Assembly (NCBI GenBank): GCA_003024785.1 | Contig: PUQB01000198.1 | Span: 229,224 to 293,223 of the forward strand | Length of the DNA: 64,000 nt | Source: Selaginella tamariscina | Taxonomy: Eukaryota; Streptophyta; Lycopodiopsida; Selaginellales; Selaginellaceae | Reading direction: 5' to 3' | Shown: positions 7,739 to 43,800 of the stretch, piece by piece | Numbering within the stretch: the stretch's first letter is position 1 | Layout of the letters: every line of letters starts with the position of its first letter | Translations under genes and position numbers: made by a program | Notes under the pieces: generated by a model | Seen by the model: the letters and a program-made list of their open reading frames with translations, nothing else | What the model was told of the DNA's origin: nothing | Database searches by the model: none

Positions 7739-7927
7739 GTACAATTTATATAGAGTGTCAGTCAATCACGGGCACCACGGTAGTGTTCGAATTGATATTT
7801 GCACTGGCGTATACTTTTCAAAAAGATAAGATATGTACAATTTATGTAGACTGATAGTCACTGTCAATCACGGGCACCACGGTAGAGTGTTCGAATTGAA
7901 CTTTTGCACTGTGGAATACTTTTCAAA
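7739..7927. repeat. Tandem duplication, about 97 bp x 2
   Basis: Two diverged copies start at about 7739 and 7836. Both contain TCAATCACGGGCACCACGG, then a TTCGAATTGA-like stretch, TTTGCACTG and ACTTTTCAAA. Copy 1 continues into AAGATAAGATATG. Copy 2 is cut after CTTTTCAAA by the 8-kb element, and the matching AAGATAAGATATGT continuation is found at 15942-15955 beyond that element. Confidence 0.75.
7919..7927. other. Left target-site duplication of the 8-kb element
   Basis: CTTTTCAAA immediately precedes the left inverted repeat and matches TTTTTCAAA at 15931-15939 in 8 of 9 positions. A 9-bp duplication fits Mutator-like elements; an 8-bp one (TTTTCAAA) would fit KDZ-type elements. Confidence 0.7.
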
Positions 7928-7951
7928 GAGTCTCGACAAAAAGAGGGCTTC
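7928..7951 (+). repeat. Left terminal inverted repeat
   Basis: Matches the reverse complement of 15907-15930 at 18 of 24 positions. It is followed by repeated GGGCTTCC and then by AGAATATTCT palindromes (7973-8015). Confidence 0.7.
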
Positions 7952-7972
7952 CGGGCTTCCGGGCTTGGACCC

Positions 7973-8028
7973 AGAATATTCTAAAGAATCTACCAGAATA
8001 TTCTTAGAATATTCCTAAATATTCTTAG
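7973..8028. repeat. AGAATATTCT palindrome cluster, left end
   Basis: AGAATATTCT occurs at 7973-7982 and 7995-8004, followed by AGAATATTCC at about 8006-8015 and a further TATTCTTAGAA. The spacing resembles, but is not exactly, alternating GAA/TTC heat-shock elements. Likely subterminal binding sites of the transposon. Confidence 0.6.
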
Positions 8029-8193
8029 AATTTAGGATTTTGGCTCAGTCAGCAATTAACAACAAAAAATATTTAATCATAGCCATGTTTATACTGTATT
8101 ATTAAAGTTTTATTTCAACACCAAAGAGTACAATTCAACACTTGTCACTTCTTCTTACGATTGAGCAATGCTGCAATTCGTGAACCACCAGTC

Positions 8194-11100
8194 CTACTTG
8201 ACGTCGCTATTGTTGGGTTGGGATTTCCTCTGGCTGGATGTTCTCTTTAATTTGTTCATAGCAATTCTCCCGAGCTCAGGGTTCTTCTTAGTCCCAACAA
8301 TGTTTCTCCCCAGCTCGATAGCTGCAAGCATTGAGGACCCCGTACCACTGCCTATATCCCAGATAAGATCACCTGGCCGGGTGAGTCGTTCTATCACGAG
8401 CTGCATCAATCGAGTGCTCTTCGGTTGGTAGTCCATCCTGCATGTGAAGATAATGGTAAATACTTAAATTGTTGAAATGAAATGCCTACCATGGTTCTTG
8501 GAACCGCTCAGGATTATCAACAAGAATTGTTGATGACAAACGCACGGATTATCGCGCAATCCTCTAGATGCATCTTGGAAGACAAGGAGCAGGATGCTCT
8601 CCTGTTAAAACATCAAAAATCATTAATGAACTTCATGAATAAAGAAAAAAGTACCTTCATCTTGTTGCGGTAGCCCCAACCACGCCCTCTGTAGATGTAG
8701 TACGTTGCAGCAAGTTGAAGGTCCACCACACTTGCAGCTCGAACAACTTGATCCCAGGTGTTTGCTGCAGCAAACACAACCAACCAACCATTTGCAGCCA
8801 TATGCATACCTGCAAACTGGAGTGCTTCATCGAACTTCACTGGATCAAGGTAGAGGTATGGCGTATCACTCGTTGTATTTCCTGGCAAGGTCCCATTTGG
8901 AAGGTCGAAGATCACCAAGTTGAAACCATATTCTCCCGCAATATGCTGGTAGCGAGTCTGGCTGTCAGCTGTATGGTACCTGGCCACCTGTGTCTGAACT
9001 TTTCTATAAGGAACCAGTCTAGCGTCAGGAACCTCCTCTTCCTTCTCATCCGTGAGCACGGCCTGTTGCATCTCCTCGATGTCATCAATCGCCAAGAAAT
9101 TATCACCTCGAGTTGTAGCAAGTGAAGGGACGAATGTGACCAAGTCATCCTTGATGTCCATGGTTCCCTGCGATGGTAGCACTTCAGATAAATTGAAGAA
9201 GGCAGCTGGATCGCGAGTAGTGGAGGTGCCAGCTACTGTATCTGAGGTCTTCTTTGACTGCTGCACAGGCTGACGCCGCTTTGCCTTGGCCTTTGTCTTC
9301 TTAATGAAGTCGACCTCTGCCGGATCCCATGAGATGCATGGGAGATCTTTTGAGTGTTCATTGTAGAGATCCTTCTCCCATGTTGGTGGTTGCCCAGGTG
9401 GATAATCAAGCCAGAACGGTACGTGTACACGCTCGAACTCTGTCAGGCCAGATCTTGTCTTCGACCACATGTGTGGTGCTTCCATGTAATCTGACCAGAA
9501 TACCATAGTCTGTGTGTGAGGCACCTTTCTCGCTGCGACATACCTGTAATGAACATATAGTAGTGTCAGAATGTAACAATGTCAAGAAGATCATCCTTAC
9601 CTCCAAATCATCCTTCTTGCTGTCTCTTCGTGTTCGAGGAACTCTTTCGGCTCTATGGAGTAAGTGAACTTCACACACTCATGGAATGGCTGGAACATCA
9701 CGTTCTTGCATTTTACCCGCACTTCATCGCACCAAGTCGTGAAATCTGTAACCGGCCTGCTCCACTCGCCATCCTCGATGAGTCCCGTGAGAATCTGTAC
9801 TGCCTCCTCTCTGATTGCCCGCCAATACAAATCGATAGTAAACCACCTTATCCACTCCTTATCCTGAACACCCGGCAATCCAAGTGTCTCTTGCTCTCTC
9901 TTCAGATCGAGACGTACCAGTTTATTGAAGTACATGATTCTCGTCTCGTTTGGAATTCTCGCCCTTGAAAGCGCGTACAGCTTTTCCAACCCCATCCATC
10001 TGCATTGTTTCCATGTGATTTGGGTCACCTTGTCGAACCACTCTTCACCCAATGCAGGATCGATGATGGCTAAGATCTTCATCATGCGCTTGTCATGCTT
10101 AATGTAGACCTGTTGTTGCTCCTGGTATTTGTTGCCTTTGGATGCCCTTGCAGCCTTCTCAAGATCATCCTCAATCTCACTCTGTAATTCACAGACGTAA
10201 TCAACTAAGTGATATAAGTGTGAGACGTGGTACCTCAAAAAAGATCTTTGCACAGATCAAATTCGGAAGTGGATGCCAAGCTTGTTGTCCAGTGCGCTTT
10301 CCTTCCACTTTCTTATGTCATCTCGTTCCTTGTCACTGAGCCTGGCCAAGATCTTCGCTGTGCCCTCCTCACTGGTGCAACATGTCTTCACAGATAGCAG
10401 AAGATGTGGCAGTGTGGTTTGCACTGCCGTTGCGGAGGAACTGCATATTTGAAAAGCTCGAAGTTAGTTAATCTAGAGGTCACTATGTTTACCTATTAAT
10501 TTGCTGAAACATTGTCACAAGCTGAAGATTATCCATGACCCCAGCACGGATGAAGCCTGAACGCACTCTCACTGCCCACTGAATCTTATCTTCCGTGTCT
10601 TCTGTGTACAGCTTCTGAAGCACCTTTAGCCTGTGATTACCATCCCAACAGATGAACTTCTTCATCGAAAGCATTGGTGCCCATTGCCGGAACATGTCGG
10701 ACTGAAGCTCCTCCTCAAAAGCCAAATGCTGAGCATACATCGCTTCATCGCTTCTCAATGCTGCCAGATCTGCATCTGTCATGGGGTCCCCAACTTGAAG
10801 GATGAACTGAGTGGTGTTGCGCAAATAACCAACTGCCTTCTTGAAACTCCTAGTCAAAGATTCCAGATCCGCTGGATTGACTCTCCGCACCTGCTCATTT
10901 CCCAGAATTCGGCAAATAGGGACATCCGGTGCCTCTCCATATTCTCGGATTGTGATCTTCGCGAGAAGACGCACTGCACTCTCCGAATGCATGCTGGCTG
11001 CAATGTTGTAAACTTCCTCATTATCTGGCACTTCTGCTTTCCCCTTCTTCTTCTTCTTAGCAGCCTCTGAATCTCCAGCAGCTTTGCGTCGTCTCTTCTT

Positions 11101-11451
11101 GCTCTTGGGTTCATCCTCTTCGTCACTCGACAAAGTCACTGCGCATGAGGCTTGTGTGCCTTCTGTCTGCTCCTGTGTCTCCTGTGGTAAGACATCATCC
11201 TCAACTTCTTCAACAAAGTCTGATTGTTCTTGTTGGGGTTGAACTACATCCTCTTGCTCTCCTGACCAGTCCTGCTGGCTTGCCTGTTCAACTGGAGCAT
11301 CACTTGAAGGTCCTTGTTCCTGAACCACAGCCAGCTTCCTACTTCCTCTCCCACGACCCCGACGCCCTCTCTGAATTGCAGCTCTAGCTTCTGCTTCTCT
11401 CTCAGTAGGCTCCTTCATCTTCTTTTCTTGTAAACGTTGTGAAGAGCGCAT
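8194..11451 (-). CDS. ParB-like domain fused to a permuted (beta-order) DNA N6-adenine/N4-cytosine methyltransferase
   Basis: Five exons are inferred on the minus strand: 11451-10493, 10440-9601, 9543-8655, 8601-8490 and 8437-8194, about 1014 residues. The N-terminus is Glu/Gln-rich with a basic nuclear-localisation-like patch (PKSKKRRRK, KKKKKGK). Residues about 160-330 resemble a ParB/Srx fold, with ICWDGNHRLKVLQKLY as the GxHR motif. A helical middle follows. The C-terminal third is a methyltransferase in beta order: motif IV-like VIFDLPN, then a GYRNKMKESILLLVF strand, then the AdoMet motif WDIGSGTG with AAIELGRNIVG, as in the N6_N4_Mtase family (PF01555). Oddities: motif IV is DLPN rather than DPPY; an in-frame TGA at 10257-10259 sits in an otherwise open exon 2; exon 4 lacks one base to stay in frame. 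Transferring a methyl group to DNA bases is inferred from the fold, not shown. Confidence 0.75.
10257..10259 (-). other. In-frame TGA inside exon 2 of the methyltransferase fusion
   Basis: The frame entering from exon 1 stays open through SDKERDDIRKWK, meets TGA, and stays open again for more than 200 codons to the next donor site. One base change from CGA would explain it, such as deamination of a methylated CpG, or it may be a sequence error. Confidence 0.7.
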
Positions 11452-11534
11452 CTACAAAAGCAATAAGGTTTAAAAAAACTGTAATAAATGTTCAAAGATG
11501 TTTAATAAAAATTAAAAAAACATACTAGCCCTCA

Positions 11535-12084
11535 CAGTCGGCGTGCCGACTGAGAGAGCAGTTGCTGTAAGTCCCAGTCGGCATGCCGACTGGGCCTGGC
11601 AACAAAGGGGCCCAGTCGGCATGCCGACTGGGACTGGCACAAAGGGAGTCCCAGTCGGCATGCCGACTGGGACTGGCAACAAAGGGAGCCCAGTCGGCAT
11701 GCCGACTGGGACTGGCATCAAAGGGAGTCCCAGTCGGCATGCCGACTGGGACTGGCAACAAAGGGAGCCCAGTCGGCATGCCGACTGGGACTGGCATCAA
11801 AGGGAGTCCCAGTCGGCATGCCGACTGGGACTGGCAACAAAGGGGTCAGTCGGCATGCCGACTGGGACTGGCAACAAAGGGAGGCCCAGTCTGGGACTGG
11901 GAACGAAACAAGGCCCAGTCAAAATGCTAGGTGGGACTAGAACAGTCAACCCTAGTCAAAATGCTGACTGGGGCTGGAACAGTCAACCCCGGTCAAAATG
12001 TTGACTGGATCTGGAACAGTCCACCCCAGTCGGCCTGCCGACTGGGACGGACAACGAAGTCAGTCCGAGTCGGCAGGCCGACTC
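11535..12084. repeat. Array of 18-bp palindromes CAGTCGGCATGCCGACTG
   Basis: Eight perfect copies begin at 11575, 11613, 11652, 11691, 11731, 11770, 11810 and 11847, so the period is 37-40 bp. A copy with one central change lies at 11535-11552. Two more variants lie at 12027-12044 (CAGTCGGCCTGCCGACTG) and 12067-12084 (GAGTCGGCAGGCCGACTC). Between 11881 and 12026 the repeat decays into spaced GACTGG and AGTCAA half-sites. The spacer is mostly GGACTGGCAACAAAGGGAG-like. The array lies between the two divergent start codons. It could bind the element's own proteins, act as a promoter or insulator, or be a methylation target; which is unknown. Confidence 0.9.
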
Positions 12085-12219
12085 GGATTTCTTGCAACTG
12101 TGAAGAGATGTAAAAAGATGAAAAGATCATGAGCAGATCATGAAGAAATCAGAAAATACTCACCCCCTCAATGGAAGCCTATTGTGATTAATCCCTGGAG
12201 CCACACTTGCTCCACGCTA

Positions 12220-12310
12220 TGCCCCCAAATGCCCGCTGCTCCACGAAAACCTAGCCGCCCTAGCTGCCCTAGCCGCCCTAATTGCAAAACCCTAGCCGCC
12301 CTAAATCAAT
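12220..12310. repeat. CCTAGCCGCC short tandem motif with telo-box-like AACCCTA
   Basis: CCTAGCCGCCCTAGCTGCCC recurs with small changes between 12250 and 12303 and includes AAAACCCTAGCC, which contains the plant telo-box core. It lies about 260-350 bp upstream of the transposase start and may be part of its promoter or leader. Confidence 0.5.
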
Positions 12311-12567
12311 TAAAAACCAACCTAATTTCTGTAAACATATTGCATGCATGATCGCCACTTGTACATAGTAAAACTTTTTAATTTACAAAAAACCTACCCA
12401 GACGCAGTAAATTAATTTCACTCTTCTACCCAGACGCACGCAATTAATATTATTTTTAATATTTGTCAATGAAATGATTGCCTCACGACTGACAAACACA
12501 TTAACCATCGTGTGTAATATGTTCATTGTCTTTGAATTTTAACTTTTGTTTGTTCCATTTTTGCTAC

Positions 12568-15500
12568 ATGGCAAGAATCAGCTACAATGGTGTTGACAAG
12601 GACTTCCCTGCAGATGAAGATGGTATTGCATTTGTCTTTGAAACAGATCTCAGGTCTGCATTTGACATTCCACCTTGGCAATCTTTTAAAGTGCTGCATT
12701 TGATGTCTGTTGTTGGTGGAGATGCTGCGAATGTTGAGGTAGAACCAGAAGGGGCAAGAGCTAGCAGTTTTGTGTATTACACACTTCTTCCTTCCAAAGG
12801 ACCGCTATTCCGGTTGGAGACAACAGATCGGGACAATTCTATGGTAACAATACTTCGCAATAGTCAGAGATGTAGGATTGGGAAGCAACTGGTGGTCTCG
12901 TCATCGATTCAGCAAGTTGCTGAGGTCCCAGAAGATTGCAACGGAAATGTGATTTACGAGTTGCCAGCACACGAAACAATGAAGGACAAGTACAAAGGGA
13001 TGAATAGGAAGGATGGGTGTGATTACTGGACTCAACGCTGCACAACACATTGGAATGTTCCAGCTCGTGTTAGTCGCAGTTCATGTATTGGCCACATGAA
13101 ATGCGTAAAGGAAACATGTCCGTTCATCAGCTTCAGTAAGAAAGCAAATGACTGCCAATTTAAGGGCACCATTGATAAAGTCCAGTTATCTTCAGATGGT
13201 AGAGTGCTTGGAATGAAGTGTGTGCATTGCAACAATGAGCCCCTTCTAGTGCAGACATGCTCCGTTGTTGCATATTACATAATTCCAGATGATATCACAT
13301 GCACGAGGCTTTTCATCCATCTTGGAGAACATCAACACCCACGTAGACCACCCGAATCCATGGTCTCTAAAGACAGAGCTAAGGAGACAATCAACAAAGC
13401 AGTCGCTGCAACCCCAAGAACTAATCAACGTGTCATAGAGTTTCAAGCAGCACGCAATATAATTTTGGAAAAACTGGTAACAGATTCTGGAGATGTATCA
13501 TACGACAAGGTTCTGTCAGATCTACTACCACTCACAAATCACCGCCGGTAAGCAAAAAAATTATTATTTCCTTTTGGAGATGCTTAACCTTTCCAATGTA
13601 GAACAAGAGAATGGATATCTCAGGCTAGAACAAAGACACTCGTTTCAAAGAAGGTTACGAAGGACTTCTGCAGTTAAAGAAGAAGCTATCAATCCCATTC
13701 ATACATGTTATCCACATACCCGGAATGGACCTCAACGGAGCTGAAGAGCAGCCTTTAATCTTCAAAATGACAGTTGCCGGCCCAGGATCCGGAATAGACT
13801 ACATTAGAAGGTGTCAATCTGGAGGTGATCTCGAACAGCAGTGGGTGGTGCTAGACCACACATATCGTATTGATGATTGGTGTACACTGGGAATACATCT
13901 CTATGATCCATTGTAAGTATTAACATATCTATGTTTTAAAATACTTACTAATATAATGCACTTATGTTTGTGCAGTTTAAGGTCGATGGTGACACTTGCT
14001 TATGGTGACATGATCAGGGAGGATAGTGTGGCGGTGATCAAATTTTTGAACACTATGCTTCAAGTGTGCAGCAAGCAAGGACTTCATAATGTGAACTTTG
14101 CGGGGTTCATGTCAGATGAGTCAGGTGCAATTTGGTTAGCATTGCGTCAAGTTTTCAACAATGGGTCAAAGATGAGGAAGAGAAAGGAGTTGTTTGTTCC
14201 ATTACATGCAGTCAGTGCGTCAAGTTACAAAGAAGTGGATACTTGAGGAACACAGGGAGGAGCACATGAACCTTGCACGCTCATGGCCTGCAGCACTAAC
14301 CAACCAAGATAAGTTGGAACGACGAGTAATGTTGGAGTCATTTTGGGAAGGCAGGTCCAGTAACGTTAGCGCTTTGCAAACATGGCTGTCATGGTGGGCA
14401 AGACATGAAGATCATATTTCCATGACAGAGATAATTGACTTGACAGAAGATGGTGTTGCGAATGTGCCTACCACTAACAACTCCGAAGTTGTTCATGCAA
14501 GAGCACGAAGAGCAAGGCTGACGAAGCGTGTTCCTTTGTTGGAGGCAACAATGTTAGATTTAACAGATGCTGTTTTCCAAAGTGCAAAGGTCAAGGCATC
14601 ATTTGAAGGGAGATATTCAGGCACAGGTCCTTCCATGGAAACTCTTCTGAAACGTGCACAGCAGAAACTTTCAGCGGGAAAATCAGTGTCTCCAACAACT
14701 TTTGCAAATCTTGTTAGTGATGAAGAGCATCTTGCAAGTCCAGAGTTTGCCTCTACAACAAATGTTCGTGTTCGAACCGTTCGTCAACCGTCAACTGGGG
14801 ACCATGGGATTGATGCACTTCGTACACATAGACATGACACACAATATGCAGAACAAGTCATCCCAAATGCACGCAGGAAAAAACTCAAGTTTCAAGATGT
14901 CAATGTCACTGAAAGAGAGACGTTGATGACTCAGTGGGCCATCAGACGCATTGGGGAGGCAAGTCAGGTGAAATGTCTAGGTCTCACTCAGGACGGTAAC
15001 AGCAAGTGTGGCAGACCCATAGGATATCCACATCGTGTACCGGCACCAGGATTTCACGGTAGACGGCAATATACAAATGCATTTGGGAACATTGAGTTCA
15101 CTCATCAGATGTTATGGTTCTGCCCACGCGATTCTTGTTGCTTCAGACGACCATATGCAGGGATTCCTCCTGAGAGTATTCCAGAAGTTCCAGAGGTTTG
15201 GCCAGTTCAAAAAGGAACAAACTTGAATGCAAATGAGGTTGAAGCTCTTCTGAAAGCAGGATTCAAGTTGGAGGGATTTGAAGAAATGGTAGACGACAGT
15301 AGTAGCCGAATGGATCGAACACCATCACCACCAAGAGGAGAGGGAGCACATAGAGTACCAACATACCATGGACGGAGTGTGCGAACACCAACAAGAATGT
15401 CCAAGGAACATGAGAAACATTACAACCAGGCAAAGATTCTTCAAGGTCGGATCAACAACGTGGAGGTGGTTCAAAGAGGGAAGACTGAGGCCTTCATTGT

Positions 15501-15759
15501 CTCTGCAGGCATGCAATCTGCTAAGGTAACAATTTCTACTGTTCCGTCATGCACTTGTGCAACTTTTCAGAAAGCCAAGAACTGGAGCCCCTGCCAACAC
15601 ATGTATTTTGTGTACACTCATGTTCTTGGATTGGACCCAACGATTACTTACTTCTTACAGAGGCGGACCCTTACTCCACAAAGTGCATCGGTTATTGTTG
15701 GTTGCAAGCGCAATGTCGAACCTGCGACTTTTAAGTTTAGTCGGTATAGTAAAGTCTAG
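12568..15759 (+). CDS. SWIM zinc-finger transposase of the 8-kb element
   Basis: Three exons are inferred: 12568-13547, 13602-13912 and 13976-15759, about 1025 residues. The N-terminal half has a GCM/WRKY-like zinc region (CxxC pairs ending in LFIHLGEHQHP). Next comes a likely RNase-H catalytic core: first Asp in WVVLDHTYRIDDW (exon 2 end) and second in FAGFMSDESGAIW (about 14098-14135). The third acidic residue could not be placed. A classic SWIM finger, SCTCATFQKAKNWSPCQH (CxC, 11 residues, CxH), lies near 15546-15600. This order fits Mutator-like or KDZ transposases. Two frame breaks interrupt it: about 13640-13660 (one base missing) and about 14185 (one extra, or two missing). Start ATG 12568 was chosen over 12526 because it precedes the conserved-looking MARISYNGVDK. 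It presumably cuts and pastes the 8-kb element. Confidence 0.75.
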
Positions 15760-15831
15760 TCGGCAAATAATTAGCGTTTTTCACTTGTTGGTCGGCATTT
15801 TATATTGAAAGTTAAAGATAATTACTTGGCA

Positions 15832-15885
15832 GAATATTCTAGAATATTCCCGTTTATTTGACAGAATATTCCTGGATATTCGGGA
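15832..15885. repeat. AGAATATTCT cluster, right end, with perfect heat-shock-element spacing
   Basis: GAATATTCTAGAATATTC at 15832-15849 reads GAAnnTTCnnGAAnnTTC, a perfect four-unit heat-shock element. Further GAATATTCC and GGATATTCGG units follow to 15885. The left end carries the same core with looser spacing. Confidence 0.65.
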
Positions 15886-15906
15886 ATATGCGAAAAGCCC
15901 TTGTAC

Positions 15907-15930
15907 GAAGCCCGGTTTTTGCCAATCCTC
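15907..15930 (-). repeat. Right terminal inverted repeat
   Basis: Reverse complement matches 7928-7951 at 18 of 24 positions. Followed by the right target duplication TTTTTCAAA (15931-15939). Confidence 0.7.
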
Positions 15931-15990
15931 TTTTTCAAAAAAAGATAAGATATGTTTTAAAAAGAATATTCGAAACAAACGACTGCAGAC

Positions 15991-17272
15991 ATGCGCTGTG
16001 GTGCATTCGAGCGCCTGCCAGAGGCCGCGCTTGTGCTCCACATCTTCACTTTCTTGGAGCTCCGAGATGTGTTCAAGCTGAGAGCCGTTTGTAAATCGTG
16101 GTATGATGCTGTGTTATCCCCGTATTTCATTCAACTGTACAAGCAGCCTCTGGATCCATGGGCAGTCTTCCGGGTGCGAACAGAAGAACCAGTTGACAGG
16201 TATCGGATCTCTCTCTTATTCATTGATGATTAAATCCAATCCTCTTGGTAATTCTTCCCATCCAGGTATGAAGATCCTGGGCATACTGGGTGTAATTACG
16301 CTTATTTCGACTACGAAATGAAGTTGGAAAGTCATGTTGAGCTCTGGCGTCCCTACGTAGCGAATCAGCGTAAGAAGTGTGCATTGCCATTGGGCCCATT
16401 AGGCTCACAGTTTGTGGGCTTGTGTGCTCCAATGGGCTTGTCTGTGGGAGGAGGATGGAACACAAGCACTCACTGACTTTAGCTGTGGGGAATCCTATCA
16501 CTAACAGATGGAAGACACTCCCTCCTTCTCCAGTCGACTCTAGGGATGTTCCTCGCCCTGAATATCTTTCCATCTACATGGAAACTGATCCGACCACGAG
16601 TTGCTATCAAGTTGCGGTGCTTTATCAGAGGGTGAATGCCGAAGACGATTTTTCGATTTACGTGGTGCAGTATGAGTCGGAGGCAGGAGACTGGGAGAGT
16701 GGGCCAGCTTTCAGCCTTGGAATCTCTTCTGGATTACCGCTTCGAGGCTATGCATTCTTTGGGAAAGTTGATAACATATTTCCAGTGTATGATCCCCAGT
16801 CCAGAAGCTGGTCACATATTGAAATAGCAAGGCCGGTATGTGACGAGGCGAGAGAGCAAGGGACCGAGTGGGAGAACTGGCTTCTTAATTACGTTGGTGC
16901 TTTCATGTACAAGGGTAAGTGTTTGTGGGCCTCGGTTCTGTTTAAATGGTCAGAGGGTGAGGAAAGTGAAGAACTTGGGTTTGCAATTTGGGAGATGGAC
17001 CAGGTGAAAGCGAGCTGGATTCTTGTGTCTAGGATACTGGGGAAAGACTTGTTGGAGACTAAGTGGGAATCCCATGGGAACAAAGACATAAAACTGCATG
17101 TGGTTGGGACACGGTAGTTATCTCAACCTTCTACAAGAAGGGGACATACGGGGAGTGCCCTCCCGTTGCTTATAACTTGGCAATTTCTAAATGGTACTCT
17201 AGTGTGAGTAAGGAAGAGTCCTCTCCCCACGGTGATATTGAGTGCGTACCCAGCTTAAATGTCAGGCCTTAA
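15991..17272 (+). CDS. F-box protein
   Basis: Exon 1 (15991-16199) encodes an F-box close to the N-terminus: FERLPEAALVLHIFTF, LRDVFKLRAVCKSWYDAV. A 66-bp intron (16200-16265) joins VDR to YEDPGHTG. Exon 2 encodes a beta-rich, Kelch-like region (LAVGNPITNRWKTLPPSP, FPVYDPQSRSWSHIEIARP). It ends with TVVISTFYKKGTYGECPP and a stop at 17270-17272. F-box proteins join SCF ubiquitin ligases through Skp1 and use the C-terminal repeats to bind a substrate; the substrate cannot be guessed. Two breaks, at about 16430-16450 and about 17105 (next to GGG), each behave as one missing base. The sequence on both sides is clearly homologous, so the gene may be intact in reality. It starts 52 bp beyond the right target duplication of the transposon, whose insertion moved its upstream region. 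Confidence 0.8.
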
Positions 17273-42200: not shown

Positions 42201-43800
42201 AGATACAGGAGAGGTAAAAAAGGACATAGGAGTTACTTGAAAAGCAAAGAGAAAAAGGAGCAGGATCAGTGGCAAGTTCATGCATATAATAGTAAAACTC
42301 GGAGAGGAGAAGGAGGGAGCTGAATGAAAGAGAGGAAGGATCTCGGGGGATGGAACAGAAGCAGAGTAATGAAAAGAGCAGGATTGGGAAAAACCTATGC
42401 AGATATTAACAAGTGTACAAAATGGAAGAATCCTGTACAGAAGTCTGTGAATGCATAAGAGTGAGGAGAGCCTGTGAATGTGCTGACGAACTGACAGAAG
42501 GTGGATCTTGTTGAGGAAGAACCTTTAACACTAATATAGGATTGGAAAACCCTGTACAGGAATTTGTGAACTTACAGAGTGGAGAGAGCCTGCGGATGTG
42601 TTGATGAACTAACATGAGGTGAATCCTGTCGAGGAGGAATTTTCAACATTGATATAGGAACAGGCACGGTCAATTATATAGCTTGTACTGCTTCAGACAC
42701 TAAGGTCATATCTTGCACGCAGGAAGGTACATGATTGATCTTAGCTGTCGGAGAGGACAACGTGAGTGTCCTAGACCTCCAATCGATTTGAGGATTTGCA
42801 ACCACGAACCATGGCATACCCAAAACGATGGGAGTCGTCCGAGTCTTGATTAAGTTGAAGGAAATCGAATAGTTGAATGCGCCATGAGTGCAAAAGAGAG
42901 GTGTGGTAGCATGGGTAACTGCACTAGAAACAATCAAAGGACCATCTGCAACCTCTACAGGAACTGCACGCTTCAATTTCACCACCAGAATGCCATGCTG
43001 AGTTGCAAAAGTGTCATCCATGAAGCATACATTTGCACCAGTGCCTAACAGGGCAAACTCCCTGAGTTCTTGATTATTGAGGCGAATGTGTATAGGAAAC
43101 TTGAGTGATGGAATGGTATGAGCAGCATCAATAAAGCCTGCACCTATGTCCAACAAAGCGGCTCCTTGATGAAGTGGACATTGAAGTTTTCCGACTGAAC
43201 TTTAGCTTTAACTTCACGCATCTTAAATTTCCTGGCTTTAATTCTGCCATCTTGTGTCCTGCTTTACCACAATACAAGTATAAGTTCTCACTGCGACGAC
43301 GTTGCTTCTCAGCAATTGAAAGTGGGCCACGCTTGTATTTATCAACCTCCATAGGAACACTTCAGAAGGTGTTGTAGGAACATATGTTACATCTACAAGA
43401 TTGGCTTGTAGGAACTGCAGACAGGATTTTTCCTAACGACACTCGAACAAATAATTGTCGTAACGAACGGCCTATTGCATGATCTCCGCTAAGGTTTGGG
43501 CATCTGGTAACATAAGGAGAAGGTCCTTCACGTCATCCTTCAACCTAAAACGGAAGTGTTCAATCAATGTAGTCTCGTCCTATGGAATGTTCATGCAAAG
43601 TTGCTGAAATTCGGATGCATAGACGGAAACTGGTCGGAATCCTTATGTAAGCTTCCATAACTTTGTGCATGTAGAACAGTACTTATCGGGATCTCCAAAG
43701 CAGGCTTCAAAGGTAGCCACGAATCCTTCAAAGTCTTCCATCAATGAGTCGTCACGCTCCAGCAAAGGGGAAACCCAAGCTTTGGAAATCCAACTAGTAA
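39280..43800 (-). pseudogene. gag-pol polyprotein of the chromovirus, multiply disrupted
   Basis: The coding order gag, protease, reverse transcriptase, RNase H, integrase and chromodomain is preserved on the minus strand, but the frame is interrupted repeatedly. The protease shows LGTGAN where DTGA is expected. Several stops in gag sit where CAG, CAA or TGG would be expected, fitting C-to-T decay. The RT YxDD region is frame-broken near 41660. Confidence 0.85.

Follow-up and report, generated by a model that had tools for sequence, protein, structure and literature searches.

Several transposons are known to carry a gene for an epigenetic modifier or a DNA methyltransferase. The VANDAL elements of Arabidopsis are Mutator-like elements (MULEs) with a transposase and an accessory gene, VANC, and the targets of VANC in VANDAL21 are short motifs, multiplied in tandem in non-coding DNA, whose number of units varies from copy to copy (PMC5735166). 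DNA methyltransferase genes are borne by the SymbioLINE, SymbioDIRS and KnitGypsy-Dnmt elements and by DIRS elements with Dam-like enzymes (PMC5890265), and Mariner elements of giant viruses combine a transposase with a methyltransferase and an endonuclease (PMC3627910). The MULEs with a SET domain of Phytophthora and the TET/JBP transposons of fungi are DNA transposons with an epigenetic-modifier gene (PMC6446971, PMC12730594). We analysed a stretch of 64,000 nucleotides of Selaginella tamariscina (contig PUQB01000198.1 of assembly GCA_003024785.1, positions 229,224 to 293,223, forward strand; hereafter the window), and describe here an element of about 8 kb at window positions 7928..15930. 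It is almost certainly a young, high-copy MULE in which a cargo gene resembling beta-class amino-methyltransferases is divergent from the transposase gene across an array of palindromes.

Comparison with VANDAL elements showed a likeness of anatomy, since both are MULEs with a transposase and an accessory gene and both have, in the non-coding DNA close to these genes, a tandem array of motifs that varies. However, the sections of PMC5735166 considered do not describe VANC as a methyltransferase, while the array motif of the Selaginella element is palindromic, and binding and anti-silencing are properties that we infer for its cargo. The elements of PMC5890265 are retrotransposons whose enzymes are of the C5-cytosine or Dam-like type, whereas ours is a DNA transposon with a domain of the beta-class PF01555 type. 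The Mariner elements of giant viruses are closer in being DNA transposons with both a transposase and a methyltransferase, but they belong to another superfamily, are borne by viruses and have Methyltransf_26 or C5 enzymes. The modifiers of the Phytophthora and fungal elements are a histone methyltransferase or a dioxygenase rather than an amino-methyltransferase. Beyond transposons, the N4CMT of bdelloid rotifers is, like the domain found here, a bacterial-type amino-methyltransferase in a eukaryote; it was horizontally acquired, has an SPPY motif and a chromodomain, and is not described as transposon-borne in the portions considered (PMC8885841). A first reading of this DNA, made from its letters alone (the sequence-only reading), had held that no well-described plant transposon carries such a cargo. 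This agrees with our literature search, which covered titles and the beginnings of abstracts, returned no MULE with a PF01555-type cargo and does not establish absence from print, and with PMC6446971, where the word methyltransferase is absent from the main text and the MULE table lists no such cargo; methyltransferases of other kinds have been described in transposons (PMC5890265, PMC3627910).

The plant's own genome (300.7 Mb in 1391 contigs) was then searched with the DNA of the element. Nineteen places including the window copy, whose main pieces were 97-99% identical, were scored out of 1410 candidates and fetched with their flanks; because they were chosen by scoring, they are biased to complete copies. 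Eighteen of the 19 (L009-L020 and L022-L027; L021 was left out) were aligned, and these were 99.3-99.7% identical to the window copy when gaps were excluded. Genome-wide searches with markers, which tolerated up to three mismatches and gave 0 sites with a reversed-pattern control, returned 208 sites for the transposase gene, 208 for the methyltransferase-like gene and 135 for the left end, and a degenerate DGNHRLKV pattern taken from the cargo was found at 212 sites. The element is a young, high-copy Mutator-like plant transposon, and some of its copies have both genes open.

The two ends were located exactly, to the base, where the sequence-only reading had placed them. The element begins with GAGTC and finishes with CCAATCCTC; its left terminal inverted repeat, imperfect and 24 bp long, occupies 7928..7951 on the plus strand, with subterminal repeats of GGGCTT and AGAATATTC after it, and the right one occupies 15907..15930 on the minus strand. 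The flanking target-site duplication consists of CTTTTCAAA at 7919..7927 and TTTTTCAAA at 15931..15939, which are identical at eight of nine positions. The inverted ends and matching flanks that had been read from the window alone were also recovered elsewhere. In a sister copy (L014), the two ends agreed at 17 of their first 24 bases (5e-5 for random 24-mers drawn from the element), and when the outer 120 bp of both ends were aligned locally the score was 50, compared with at most 46 among 500 base shuffles. A perfect 9-bp duplication was found in 9 of the 16 copies in which both ends were located. The scores were 8/9 in the window copy (L027) and L022, 7/9 in L013 and L014, 6/9 in L019, 5/9 in L023 and 3/9 in L012, a copy in which both genes are nonetheless open; the right end was allowed to slide by up to three bases, so that scores below 9/9 are biased upward. 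These scores leave out L009, which meets a contig end, the fragment L021, and L024, whose altered left end lacks the GAGTCCCGAC start and is still flanked by a direct repeat of CATTCCCCG. We consider the ends genuine because in sister copies the same ends are flanked by 9-bp duplications.

The duplication of 9 bp falls within the 8-11 bp range of MULEs, and terminal inverted repeats are present, short and imperfect. The ends and the length of the duplication, taken with the SWIM-type transposase described below, make the element fit the MULEs, for which target duplications of 8-11 bp and SWIM fingers are listed (PMC6446971). No MULE model was returned by Pfam for the transposase, at E<=5 with the whole protein or at E<=10 with its core, when MULE/DDE profiles were looked for. 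This result, and the occurrence of SWIM fingers in other superfamilies, would favour an assignment to one of the latter, such as KDZ/Zisupton. Such an assignment is very unlikely, since KDZ elements make duplications of 8 bp and those found here are of 9 bp, as expected of MULEs, and since the GAG...CTC ends resemble those of maize Mu.

We compared the positions of the two genes across the genome using the first 100 of the 208 methyltransferase sites and 96 of the first 100 of the 208 transposase sites (the four on contig C639, outside the range of the methyltransferase list, were excluded). A correctly oriented transposase site was found within 13 kb downstream for 84 of these 100 methyltransferase sites. 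The median spacing of the 84 pairs was 4389 bases, with 81 pairs at 3.8-5.5 kb and three at 11-12 kb; 16 methyltransferase sites and 12 transposase sites remained without a partner. Inspection of six of the 16 lone methyltransferase sites (L028-L033) showed that five hold transposase-gene DNA; the remaining one, L028, ends at window position 10047. A further lone site, on C58, belongs to L020, a copy with an internal deletion that has removed some 680 bp from the transposase gene, the first predicted catalytic aspartate among them, and has left both ends in place with a perfect 9-bp duplication. The pairing and the transposase DNA at the exceptions led us to conclude that the two genes travel together, as far as they were sampled. 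The palindrome array accompanies them in 18 of 18 aligned copies, and the sequence-only reading, which had taken all three to be parts of one element, stands on this point.

This fixed-spacing linkage to the transposase would also suit a cargo that helps transposition as an accessory protein, with the ends or the transposase, and not silencing, as its target; several groups of MULEs are listed with antisense accessory open reading frames (ORFs) (PMC6446971). We regard this role as unlikely, since no feature of the sequence points to the ends, and the palindromes lie between the genes and not at the ends.

The divergent arrangement of two genes was borne out by the alignment of the copies. The methyltransferase-like gene (8145..11451, minus strand) was modelled from the 18 aligned copies with six exons (11451-10493, 10440-10254, 10204-9601, 9543-8655, 8601-8490 and 8437-8145) and encodes 1016 amino acids where it is open. 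The transposase gene (12568..15733, plus strand) has three exons (12568-13547, 13602-13912 and 13976-~15733) and encodes 1018 amino acids where it is open. All introns are GT-AG and 49-63 nt long, with splice sites inferred from the aligned copies; the gene models are predictions, and their least certain splice is at the second intron (49 nt) of the methyltransferase-like gene. Both genes are frameshifted in the window copy, which differs from the majority of copies by small indels and substitutions. The in-frame stops of this copy had been considered as mini-introns or nonsense sites, an interpretation that was rejected once the copies were aligned. The methyltransferase-like gene is open (1012-1016 amino acids) in 5 of the 18 aligned copies, the transposase gene (1017-1018 amino acids) also in 5, and both in 3; the transposase of L015, of 1017 amino acids, was counted as complete by length alone. 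The frameshifts in the remaining copies may represent decay or assembly error.

The plus-strand gene is predicted to encode a distant SWIM-type transposase. A search of protein databases with its product returned one distant relative (P0001; E 2e-16, 24% identity across 54% of the query), which is in turn a SWIM protein, its score slightly exceeding the cut-off (20.8 versus 19.6 bits). The BLASTP alignment of the two proteins contains 124 identities in 509 positions and spans D412, D478, the FHYMQSV stretch and E602; D412, D478 and E602 are likely to be the catalytic residues and FHYMQSV the C/H region. The only Pfam match of the transposase was a SWIM finger at its C-terminus, with E values of 0.015-0.027, a match that falls short of the cut-off. 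The transposase half of what had been called a SWIM transposase is retained, while its SWIM finger stays a below-cut-off match.

That the last 260 or so residues of the cargo look like a beta-class amino-methyltransferase is supported by several comparisons. The first half of the domain, at 8655..9032 on the minus strand, contains FDLPNG, which MAFFT aligned as motif IV with the DPPY, DIPY and DPAY of phage and plasmid enzymes, and the second half, at 8194..8436 on the same strand, contains the AdoMet motif I, DIGSGTGS. PF01555 matched with an E value of 3.5e-9 and 37.4 bits for a cut-off of 26.7, over profile positions 165-220 of 221 only, which is the motif-I end. The phrog_67 DNA methyltransferase profile matched at 4e-12, and matches to enzymes of known structure were obtained with MboIIA (5e-4), CcrM (1.1e-3) and the ribosomal protein L11 methyltransferase (1.2e-3), while the NCBIfam matches of the domain were all far below cut-off. 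The MAFFT alignment showed that the cargo is colinear with two Curtobacterium plasmid enzymes from VITDPPY through to the end and that motif IV precedes motif I. An hhalign comparison with three phage and two plasmid enzymes gave a probability of 98.6% over residues 79-233, a match that does not include motif IV. No hits were obtained when the read-through cargo was used to search protein databases, and scans of viral contigs returned no relative. FDLPNG and DIGSGTGS were found in a reading frame in 19 of the 19 fetched copies; because these copies are nearly identical, this conservation counts as one observation.

A methyltransferase with motif IV before motif I is what the sequence-only reading had proposed for the C-terminal third, which does align with methyltransferases; its further claim of an N6-adenine or N4-cytosine enzyme was too confident, in that the methyltransferase-like domain holds and the case for activity is weakened by the sequence of motif IV. 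In the two MAFFT alignments on which this reading of the motif rests, the aspartate is kept and PPY is replaced by LPN, so that all 19 copies have DLPN in place of the catalytic [DNS]PP[YFW], and catalysis is uncertain. A cargo that is an active N6-adenine or N4-cytosine DNA methyltransferase, marking the ends, the array or new copies for protection, for the timing of transposition or for escape from silencing, would agree with the PF01555 match above cut-off, with the colinear alignment of the whole domain with plasmid and phage enzymes, and with the retention of motif I and of the aspartate of motif IV. The aligned phage enzymes moreover include one with DIPY and one with DPAY, and the middle positions of the motif can thus vary. 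However, DLPN lacks the aromatic residue and one proline, and the change of SPPY to APPA in the rotifer N4CMT abolishes activity (PMC8885841). The HP-T-[QT]KP stretch is altered too, and the PF01555 match covers only the last quarter of the profile. Methyltransferases of other substrates match that part about equally well, as shown by the values for the L11 enzyme and CcrM, and the substrate may therefore not be DNA. On balance we consider an active DNA methyltransferase rather doubtful.

The N-terminal 140 residues of the cargo are charged and include stretches such as KSKKRRRK and KKKKKGK, which would fit a nuclear signal. Downstream of this highly basic N-terminus, a segment at 10495..11034 on the minus strand had been proposed to be ParB/Srx-like on account of WDGNHRLKV, which falls within cargo residues 145-320, reads by eye like a ParB/Srx motif and is present in 19 of 19 fetched copies. 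Beyond this motif the proposal found no backing. ParB/Srx profiles were returned neither by Pfam at E<=10 nor by PHROGs or NCBIfam at E<=5, and excision of a presumed insertion from the segment still gave no profile match. With tblastn at E<=10, three matches were obtained, one in a phage and two in plasmids, with E values of 2-8; none of them is annotated as ParB, and a protein database search with the ParB-like exon gave nothing. With regard to the alpha+beta fold and GxHR-type pocket of the ParB/sulfiredoxin superfamily, the cargo has the DGNHR motif, and AlphaFold, run on the single sequence of that exon alone, gave a predicted local distance difference test score (pLDDT) of 41.6. The ParB assignment is thus unproven. 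Prokaryotic ParB-methylase fusions such as Bce_0392 (PMC5512222) share with the cargo a methylase domain and the claimed N-terminal ParB-like motif; the cargo differs from them in that its ParB segment is unconfirmed, more than 400 residues separate the two parts, the gene has eukaryotic introns and motif IV is degenerate.

The palindrome array occupies 11533..12087, between the two start codons. Its core, GTCGGCATGCCGAC, recurs mostly every 37-40 bp and often extends to a palindrome of 28 bp, AGTCCCAGTCGGCATGCCGACTGGGACT. The window copy has 11 units at up to one mismatch, all at 11537-12069 and none elsewhere in the window, while the number of units varies from 7 to 14 among the aligned copies, in which counts over the whole element never exceed those of the array. 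A tandem motif array in non-coding DNA that varies between copies, as known from VANDAL elements, is thus present.

From these features we propose, as the likeliest of the roles considered, that the cargo may be a VANC-like, element-specific factor for anti-silencing or autoregulation, acting on its own promoter. The transposase would cut at the GAG...CTC ends and produce the 9-bp target duplications, and the cargo protein would enter the nucleus by means of its basic N-terminus and be targeted to the element by the palindromes. There it would either place an amino-methyl mark or, as an option that we keep because motif IV is DLPN, bind DNA and S-adenosylmethionine with no canonical catalysis. 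Its main effect would be that the element's bidirectional promoter stays active in the face of host silencing. The anti-silencing or autoregulatory role, argued by analogy with VANC, is possible although somewhat doubtful; for the whole explanation, structure and VANC-like role together, we would put the likelihood slightly below even.

The variation among the copies was compared between the two genes. The exons contain 23 substitution variants in the methyltransferase-like gene and 60 in the transposase gene. Among the 18 aligned copies, C>T/G>A variants were found at 12 of 1581 C/G sites of the former and at 36 of 1405 of the latter (Fisher p=1e-4), and were thus 3.4-fold rarer per C/G site in the methyltransferase-like gene. 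This lower rate, which speaks for the VANC-like explanation, would fit a lesser cytosine methylation over that half of the element, and is only a hint. Several points weigh against the VANC-like explanation. As a proportion of all variants, C>T/G>A changes did not differ significantly between the genes (p=0.18), and a single copy, L020, supplies 13 of the 51 C>T/G>A occurrences of the transposase gene. The copies are about 99.5% identical, so that the conservation of the motifs is one evolutionary data point and is silent on selection. No DNA-binding domain was recognised in the cargo by Pfam, and its binding to the palindromes is something that we infer.

The near-identity of the copies makes a test of selection impossible, and the shared variants (four synonymous and two non-synonymous in the methyltransferase-like gene, three and five in the transposase gene) are too few to test. 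This would suit a cargo gene that is a functionless captured passenger, multiplied along with one or a few source copies in a recent burst, as would the degenerate catalytic motif, which fits a loss of function, and the tendency of MULEs to pick up host gene fragments (PMC6446971). However, a gene of six exons and 1016 amino acids is open in as many of the aligned copies as the transposase gene, and it is divergent from the latter across a structured array; a mere passenger is quite unlikely.

The genes neighbouring the element in the window include an F-box gene, an At3g26010-like beta-propeller gene and one with a weak cellulose-synthase match. The F-box ORF (window 15931-16233) has its ATG at 15991, 60 bases beyond the right end of the element; MULEs are known to insert near gene starts. 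Directly left of the insertion site is a tandem duplication of about 96 bp (7739-7930). An ORF with DUF7869, a domain known from other transposon-like genes, is located at 58-1404, and an ORF at 42674-43156 that matches a retroviral-type aspartyl protease is perhaps a retrotransposon remnant.

In its furthest form, the VANC-like explanation would be that an amino-methyltransferase of bacterial type, its catalytic motif rewritten, was turned by a plant cut-and-paste transposon into an epigenetic factor that recognises its own element. This factor would act on the palindrome array in the bidirectional promoter of the element and add or read a mark other than 5-methylcytosine, in a group of lineages from which the eukaryotic AMT1 pathway of N6-methyladenine has presumably been lost, and the element would so have escaped silencing and reached about 200 copies. 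We offer this as a speculation that is on the whole improbable. The dealings of mobile DNA with silencing have been shown by transposons with epigenetic modifiers (VANC, SET, TET/JBP and C5 methyltransferases), and a plant MULE with a cargo of the amino-methyltransferase type would add a new kind to them. The young, high-copy family, its copies with open genes and a defined candidate target array make experiments on anti-silencing practical.

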